A stretch of 58,972 nucleotides of DNA. Source: Candidatus Woesearchaeota archaeon (GTDB taxonomy: Archaea > Nanobdellota > Nanobdellia > Woesearchaeales > JAFGLG01). The position numbers were made by a program, and so were the translations under genes. This document shows, one piece after another, positions 16,366-17,392 of this stretch (within the stretch, counting starts at the first letter, position 1; each line of letters begins with the position of its first letter). The DNA lies in the NCBI GenBank assembly GCA_016928155.1, contig JAFGLG010000007.1:1-58972 (forward strand), given 5' to 3'. The notes under the pieces were generated by a model, which saw only the letters and a program-made list of their open reading frames with translations, had not been told where the DNA came from and did no database searches.

Positions 16366-16438
16366 AAGGCGAAAAATGAGTCATTAATATATATGTTTTT
16401 CCACAAACTATATAATGGGGTATACAGCCCATTCGGGC
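16366..16438. promoter_or_regulatory. Divergent leaderless promoters
   Basis: A minus-strand TATA element (around 16384-16396) serves the ATG at 16365. A plus-strand CTATATAAT (16408-16415) serves the ATG at 16439. Both spacings are about 25-27 nt. The plus box overlaps an earlier ATG (16415), which is why 16439 is the better start for the thioredoxin-like gene. Confidence 0.6.
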
Positions 16439-16843
16439 ATGAAATGGATAATGCCCATGATGATGCTGATTTTGGCCCTTACAGCCTGCAAGCCCCCGGA
16501 AATCGAGGAAAACGGGCTCGTGCAGTATGAGAACTACACAAGCACTGACCTTTTCGCCATCTGCCTGGCCAGCACCGGGATGCAGCTGTTCGGCTCAAGC
16601 ACCTGCGGAGGCTGTGTCTACCAGAAAAACCTCTTCGGGGAGGCTTTCAAGCATATAAATTATGTCGAATGCAACCTGAATGAGCCAAACCACAACTTCG
16701 AATACTGCAGGGAGATGAATATAACACATTATCCCAGCTGGGTGAAAGATGAAGTGCTTTATCCTGGTTCCAAGACATTCCAGGAGCTTTCTATAATATC
16801 CGGATGCGCTTATCCAGGCGGCTCTGTCCGGAATGTAGGTTAG
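16439..16843 (+). CDS. Thioredoxin-fold lipoprotein-like protein with C-terminus altered by a MITE
   Basis: 134 residues. The N-terminus has a signal peptide ending in a lipobox-like LTAC (about residue 17), suggesting a lipid-anchored or secreted protein. The thioredoxin-like part has a FGSSTCGGC redox motif and a later ITHYPSW segment in the cis-Pro position, similar to the thioredoxin-like domain attached to some VKOR proteins. A thiol-disulfide role outside the membrane is inferred. The last residues (GSVRNVG) and stop codon come from the MITE at 16820-16984. Without it the frame would end ISGCAYPG-stop, so the fold should be intact. Confidence 0.8.
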   Translation: MKWIMPMMMLILALTACKPPEIEENGLVQYENYTSTDLFAICLASTGMQLFGSSTCGGCVYQKNLFGEAFKHINYVECNLNEPNHNFEYCREMNITHYPSWVKDEVLYPGSKTFQELSIISGCAYPGGSVRNVG

Positions 16844-16984
16844 TGGCATCAGGTCAAAGTCCGGATGAGCGATTTTCTGGCTGACAAAGGGGAAGCTCCC
16901 TACGGGAAATGTCAGCTTTGAATTGGTTATAACCGGGACTTTGAAGCCACTAACCCAAGCGTTAGCGAGATTCTGGACAGAGCC
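16820..16984. mobile_element. MITE, 165 bp, with 15-bp terminal inverted repeats and 9-bp target duplication
   Basis: The termini GGCTCTGTCCGGAAT (16820-16834) and ATTCTGGACAGAGCC (16970-16984) pair over 15 positions with one G-T. TATCCAGGC is directly repeated on both sides (16811-16819 and 16985-16993), a 9-bp target-site duplication. Inside, the arms continue to pair: GGTTAGTGGC/GCCACTAACC (16838-16847/16946-16955), TCAAAGTCC/GGACTTTGA (16854-16862/16936-16944), and GCTGACA/TGTCAGC (16880-16886/16910-16916). A GGTTATAACC palindrome lies at 16925-16934. No transposase is encoded, so it must be moved in trans. The transposon family is not identified. Confidence 0.85.
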
Positions 16985-17065
16985 TATCCAGGCTAAAGAT
17001 TTAAAAAGGAGAGCCAATTCTGCAGAACCAACTGCCCATGAAGGGCGCGTTCGGAGGAAAGTAAA

Positions 17066-17392
17066 ATGGAAGGAAGTGTTAAGTGGTTCAATAGGACCAA
17101 AGGATATGGTTTTGTACAAGGAGAAGACGGCAACGAGTATTTTGTGCATAAGACAGGACTGGCAAAGGGCACATTCATAAGAGATAATGACCGTGTATCC
17201 TTTGATCCTGCAGAAGGTGAGAAAGGAAAACAGGCACAGAATGTCGTGCTGCTCCAGAAAGGAAGCGAGATAGCACAGTCAGCTAAACCTGCTGCATCAG
17301 AGCCTGAAGAATCTGATGAGTCTACAGAAGATAATTCTGATGAGTCTACAGAAGAAGAATCTGATGAGTCTACAGAAGAAAATTCTGAATAA
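17066..17392 (+). CDS. Cold-shock-domain protein with acidic repeat tail
   Basis: 108 residues. The ATG at 17066 follows GGAGGAAAG. A TATA-like AGATTTAAAAAGG (16996-17008) lies just beyond the MITE, so the promoter was spared. Residues 1-65 form a complete cold-shock domain with RNP1 (KGYGFV, about 12-17) and RNP2 (EYFVHKT), binding single-stranded RNA/DNA as a chaperone. Residues 75-108 are an acidic tail of three SDESTE(D/E)(N/E) units. The tail is unusual for this normally 65-70-residue family and may regulate nucleic-acid binding by electrostatic competition, or mediate partner binding (inference). Confidence 0.9.
   Translation: MEGSVKWFNRTKGYGFVQGEDGNEYFVHKTGLAKGTFIRDNDRVSFDPAEGEKGKQAQNVVLLQKGSEIAQSAKPAASEPEESDESTEDNSDESTEEESDESTEENSE
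17312..17383 (+). repeat. 24-bp tandem repeat x3 in cold-shock gene tail
   Basis: Three 24-bp units beginning TCTGATGAGTCTACAGAAGA are nearly identical and encode the acidic SDESTE repeats. Low divergence between units points to a recent expansion by slippage. Confidence 0.9.

Follow-up and report, generated by a model that had tools for sequence, protein, structure and literature searches.

Short gene-less transposons in the genomes of uncultured archaea lie at a fixed distance from TATA boxes, and integration is likely aimed at the upstream edge of the archaeal BRE-TATA core promoter. The window analyzed here is a stretch of 58,972 nucleotides from a Candidatus Woesearchaeota archaeon. It contains one such element, between the genes for a thioredoxin-like protein and a cold-shock-domain protein. 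The initial annotation, made from sequence alone, had described a 165-bp element between perfect 9-bp duplications, and this held base for base. The features are as follows, all on the + strand.

16415..16843, +, gene for the thioredoxin-like protein, 142 amino acids now and 135 without the insertion
16811..16819, +, left target duplication TATCCAGGC (sequence)
16820..16984, +, non-autonomous element of 165 bp, core orientation + (sequence, copies, and covariance model at 152.4 bits)
16820..16834, +, left terminal inverted repeat (sequence; common to IS5-type elements)
16838..16847, +, left arm of the second stem, GGTTAGTGGC (covariation)
16883..16913, +, conserved apical core, GACAAAGGGGAAGCTCCCTACGGGAAATGTC (conservation across the family)
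16946..16955, +, right arm of the second stem, GCCACTAACC (covariation)
16956..16969, +, side hairpin, CAAGCGTTAGCGAG, in the right arm only (folding and alignment)
16970..16984, +, right terminal inverted repeat (sequence)
16985..16993, +, right target duplication TATCCAGGC (sequence)
16994..16999, +, BRE-like hexamer TAAAGA, including the TAA that would stop the upstream gene if the insertion were absent
17000..17007, +, TATA box of the cold-shock gene, TTTAAAAA, at the fixed register of the family
17066..17392, +, gene for the cold-shock-domain protein (PF00313)

The terminal repeats are 15 bp long with one mismatch (GGCTCTGTCCGGAAT / GGCTCTGTCCAGAAT). The element folds at -84.3 kcal/mol (z -6.8), and none of 200 shuffled sequences is as stable. 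The cold-shock-domain protein has an acidic repetitive tail of SDESTEE-type repeats, encoded at 17308-17392.

A family of short elements

The element belongs to a family with many copies. The genome from which the window comes has about 17 whole or half copies. Among them are three full copies with 92-100% identity, along with diverged relatives and with half copies where contigs end. One copy (C5:85119-85366, L084) is longer, at 248 bp, and its apex holds an additional module of about 83 bp. At least six contigs of this genome end within such elements, so the repeat broke the assembly. The initial annotation had proposed looking for further copies in the genome and its relatives; these were found, with copies at 89-96% identity in the same genome and the family present in the order. 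An exact 9-bp duplication flanks 45 of the 94 family members with readable flanks, while any other length from 4 to 12 bp occurs at most three times. These shared duplications and the further copies in the same genome show that the element is not a chance structure.

Several variants of the element were seen. The ends of contigs C2, C5, C8, C9, C10, and C11 of the same genome fall within copies of the family. Three sequences at the ends of C2, C4, and C12 (L078, L079, and L080) and one further locus (L114) contain a second hairpin module with GGGCTTTATGCCCAACTTGATC and share the GGCTCTGTCCGGAA ends, and the 248-bp version has sequence related to this module within its apical insert. Another set of elements (L117, L123-L126, L134, L138, and L143) has the same apical core and quite different ends (GTATGTGCATAGCATC, GTAATACTTCAGCAATCTGAAGC), and two of these have 8-bp duplications.

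The family is widespread in one order of archaea. Of 145 genomes examined in this order, 15 besides the genome of the window have related sequence, strongest in the apex. With a covariance model, the family was recovered from 143 of 353 genomes in the order. Of the 76 genomes that scored positive in a phylum-wide covariance sample, all but one belong to the order. When 84,980 species genomes were scanned with the apical core, there were 32 matches, and 31 of these come from records labeled Woesearchaeota, Nanoarchaeota, Pacearchaeota, or unnamed archaeon. A match in Treponema (L127) has a different context and was set aside as probable chance or misbinning. No match to the core pattern was found in viral contigs. 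The open-access literature that was searched contains no description of the element family; subscription papers were mostly outside this coverage. It is likely that these elements form a large and apparently undescribed family of short gene-less transposons in Woesearchaeota-type archaea.

The length and the apex are conserved, and the terminal repeats are variable. A length of 163-166 bp is found in 81 of 95 model matches, and most exceptions are 200-230 bp long with the extra length in the apex. When only the ends were used in the search and not the core, 14 of 15 spacings were 161-165 bp, although spacings of 60-1450 bp were permitted. The terminal repeats vary among lineages (GGCTCTGTCCGGAA, GGCTCTGTAGAAAA, GGCTTCATCCAAAA, GGCTATTATGAAAT, and others), and both ends always change together. 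Changes on both sides of the stems number 354, compared to 77 expected from shuffles, and nearly all come from the outer stem and the second stem. Identity per alignment column averages about 0.7 in the ends, the second stem, the side hairpin, and the apex, and 0.41 in the arms between them. The body of the element is itself under constraint, as the conserved apex and fixed length show; the reason has not been established. The apical core is kept across the order, and it has no known function. In the window (16883-16913) and at homologous positions it has a G-tract, a C-tract, and a G-tract in that order (GGGG..TCCC..GGGA), and two alternative hairpins are possible.

Insertion upstream of promoters

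Alignment of insertion sites by their duplications reveals a one-sided motif, which consists of the duplication, approximately RWAAMA, and then TTTATAAA. In 68 of 94 sites, one side of the insertion has a strict TATA box whose start is 14-18 bp from the duplication's outer edge, while other 5-bp windows up to 55 bp contain a TATA start in one to seven of the 94 (binomial p of about 3e-55 relative to the highest background). The 94 sites are distinct flanks from approximately 50 genomes and are taken as independent insertions. The register was first noticed in 60 sides and then extended to the 94 sites, and the two sets overlap. A looser form of the promoter fits 17 of the remaining 26 sites, and about one tenth of all sites have no promoter even loosely. 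The AA of the BRE stands between the duplication and the TATA box, and in many cases a start codon comes about 22 bp farther along. The short element can have either of its ends toward the promoter (30 left, 24 right), and most surviving copies sit between genes.

All eight copies in the genome of the window with both sides readable are in register, including the window copy (TATCCAGGC TAAAGA TTTAAAAA). Autonomous IS elements provide an independent set, in which nine of ten complete elements are in register, along with eight of 16 with a single visible side; some of these sites have an imperfect duplication or an end call that is off by one base. The initial annotation had stated that the element abuts but spares the TATA box of the cold-shock gene. 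This held, and the insertion-site alignment shows that the position is a rule of the family and not an accident.

The targeted TATA boxes belong to real promoters. An open reading frame starts within 400 bp downstream in 63 of 66 cases. Start codons show a sharp peak 20-24 bp past the targeted box (44%, compared to 6% for other TATA strings). This is the TATA-to-start spacing expected for leaderless archaeal genes. The flanking composition and logo at insertions equal those of 144 ordinary promoters of these genomes. In addition, a start codon lies within 14-60 bp of 78% of targeted boxes, compared to 44% for equal BRE and TATA strings elsewhere between genes (p = 1.3e-4). This contrast favors an occupied promoter, and not the mere string, as what is recognized, but it is not proof.

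In the window, the insertion has also changed the end of the upstream protein. The predicted seven-residue extension is confirmed: the open reading frame at 16415-16843 ends in ISGCAYPG followed by GSVRNVG, and removal of the element and one duplication restores TAT CCA GGC TAA. The gene gained these residues because its stop codon sits within the BRE of the cold-shock promoter, and the longer tail is likely a side effect of the promoter hit. The thioredoxin-like protein has relatives in 208 of 338 genomes of the order, and most of 19 that were examined stop one to six residues past the same conserved Cys. Thus SGCAYPG, the ending predicted for the empty site, is nothing unusual, and the protein now ends later than is typical. 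The protein ends of relatives give indirect support to the predicted TAA; the genomes available included none from the genus or family of the window, and the empty site was not directly observed. The proposal that the insertion is recent held only in part, as recency is inferred from the perfect duplication.

Partner transposases and related systems

Transposases with the DDE_Tnp_1 domain (PF01609) were searched for in relatives, and their flanks were inspected for ends and duplications. Four complete IS elements are listed here.

L192, 898 bp, ends GGCTCTGTCCTGAATCTC, perfect 9-bp duplication
L203, 904 bp, same ends as L192 (GGCTCTGTCCTGAATCTC), interrupted gene, perfect 9-bp duplication
L188, 1183 bp, ends GGCTCCATCCAAAAA, perfect 9-bp duplication
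L197, 1019 bp, ends GGCTAATATGAAACCC, perfect 9-bp duplication

Further transposase-bearing elements have GGCTCTGTAGAAAATCTC, GGCTGCGTTGAAAAAGT, and GGCTTAGTAGAAAA ends. The end types of complete IS elements in relatives match those of the short elements, and in two genomes (G133 and G331) the ends of transposase-bearing and short elements agree over 17-18 bp. The partner transposases match IS5 models, carry the DDE_Tnp_1 domain, and share the YREK catalytic signature (Y-2-R-3-E-6-K) in an alignment. Three of them score 145, 124, and 88 bits with an NCBIfam IS5 model whose cut-off is 140. The apical core is absent from the four listed elements; it is not needed for targeting, as autonomous elements without it still land at the register. 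At contig ends of G078 and G133 (L323, L329, L335, and L340-L344), multicopy IS5-type elements break the assemblies, and several copies are at the same promoter register.

The initial annotation had identified a MITE with a reconstructable insertion and had suggested a transposase that makes 9-bp duplications. The first point held, supported by multiple copies and by IS5-type transposons in relatives with the same ends and duplication length. Such transposases are found in relatives, but none was detected in the genome of the window with four models (PF01609, PF13610, PF00872, and a profile of the partner transposases). The partner in this genome may have been lost or may sit in assembly gaps; both are possible.

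The family resembles several known systems. Like prokaryotic MITEs mobilized by IS elements (PMC10969869), its members are short, lack a gene of their own, and have terminal inverted repeats, a target duplication, multiple copies, and ends shared with IS elements. In two relatives, short elements share their ends with an autonomous element that lies in the same genome; in the genome of the window, no transposase was found. Unlike those MITEs, the family conserves its body, core, and length over an order while the ends change, and it targets promoters precisely. The partners resemble IS5-family insertion sequences in their domain, YREK signature, 9-bp duplication, and GGCT-type ends; they differ in inserting directly upstream of archaeal BRE-TATA, and some copies fall under NCBIfam cut-offs. 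ERIC and REP palindromes are also conserved palindromic intergenic repeats, whereas the archaeal family has 9-bp duplications and IS5-type partners.

Insertion at a fixed distance from promoters is known from other transposons. TnGBS, ISLre2, and ISKra4 insert 15-17 bp upstream of sigma-A promoters (PMC3942029). They share a promoter register with the archaeal elements, but they use Mutator-type transposases and bacterial promoters. The archaeal partners carry PF01609, and the Mutator-type domain PF00872 has no match in the genome of the window and hardly any in 15 relatives that carry the element. Most p-MULT 3 elements are oriented (PMC3942029), while either end of the archaeal elements can face the promoter. 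The archaeal ISH6 duplicates an AT-rich motif (PMC3942029). Yeast Ty3 integrates at a fixed promoter spot and needs TBP and Brf1 (PMC5911963), which are homologues of archaeal TBP and TFB. Ty3 is however a eukaryotic retrotransposon that uses an integrase at Pol III genes, and docking has not been shown for the archaeal elements. No report of IS5-type insertion at archaeal TATA boxes was found in the open-access literature searched, which leaves out most subscription papers.

Mechanism and alternatives

Taken as a whole, the most probable account is that a MITE of about 165 bp is moved by IS5-type transposases that target the upstream edge of BRE-TATA promoters. The transposases would act in trans, recognizing ends of about 15-18 bp, and a staggered cut would duplicate 9 bp; the ends and duplications are shown, while the reaction itself is inferred. 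The insertion-site alignment shows that the duplication is set to touch the upstream edge of BRE-TATA. The means would probably be docking of the transposase on promoter DNA bound by TBP and TFB, which is inferred and unproven. The promoter would survive because the cut falls just outside it. In the window, the target would be the cold-shock promoter, whose BRE overlaps the thioredoxin-like stop codon. A bolder reading is that archaeal IS5-type elements dock on TBP-TFB as a counterpart of Ty3, and that a satellite with a conserved hairpin exploits transposases across the order. This could as easily prove wrong as right.

The strongest alternative is that the transposase reads AANNTTTATAAA or its bendability directly, without a transcription factor. 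The targets share a strong motif, and sequence-specific DDE transposases are common. However, the motif does not go beyond what promoters of these genomes have in general, copies of the string near promoters are hit in preference to identical strings at other intergenic positions, and insertions use only the BRE side of TTTATAAA even though it is a palindrome. Direct reading therefore seems the weaker of the two explanations, but the sequence data cannot separate it from protein docking.

It is unlikely that the main role of the element is that of an RNA, either a structured RNA gene or a cis-acting RNA, with mobility only incidental. An RNA would fit the covariation in the stems, the conservation of the apical loop, and the side hairpin. 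Against it, there is no match to an Rfam covariance model, the orientation relative to neighboring genes is neutral (++ 19, -- 19), and the evidence from wobble pairs is weak and inconsistent (20 G-U compared to 10 A-C in the aligned stems, and 166 compared to 256 across the whole arms). A strand-specific RNA role is thus unsupported and improbable, but not excluded.

Random insertion, with selection keeping only copies that spare promoters, is very improbable. Insertions in core promoters would be harmful, and the intergenic location of most surviving copies fits this idea. However, positions farther upstream should be tolerated, yet they hold few insertions (one to seven per window, as given above). 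Survival bias in place of targeting was rejected on account of the 1-2 bp register. An element that adapts to reading frames, like the Rickettsia palindromes, would explain the residues added to a protein, but it is all but excluded, as just the last seven residues are affected and copies are mainly in promoter regions and not in frame inside genes.

Targeting of IS5-type elements to promoter fronts would have consequences for the biology of these archaea. Targeting of the promoter front to the base pair is documented for bacterial Mutator-type elements and yeast Ty3, and for archaea only an AT-rich preference was found in the literature searched. The register is visible in approximately 50 genomes and is easy to test. 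Because insertions land upstream of promoters, the elements can spread through compact genomes without inactivating genes, and the account would explain the spread of transposons in the small, gene-dense genomes of DPANN archaea. Insertions rewire the DNA upstream of promoters while leaving the promoters unbroken, and they mark core promoters in archaea that have not been cultured. If TBP and TFB are indeed the docking surface, a targeting principle would be common to archaeal DNA transposons and a eukaryotic retrotransposon.
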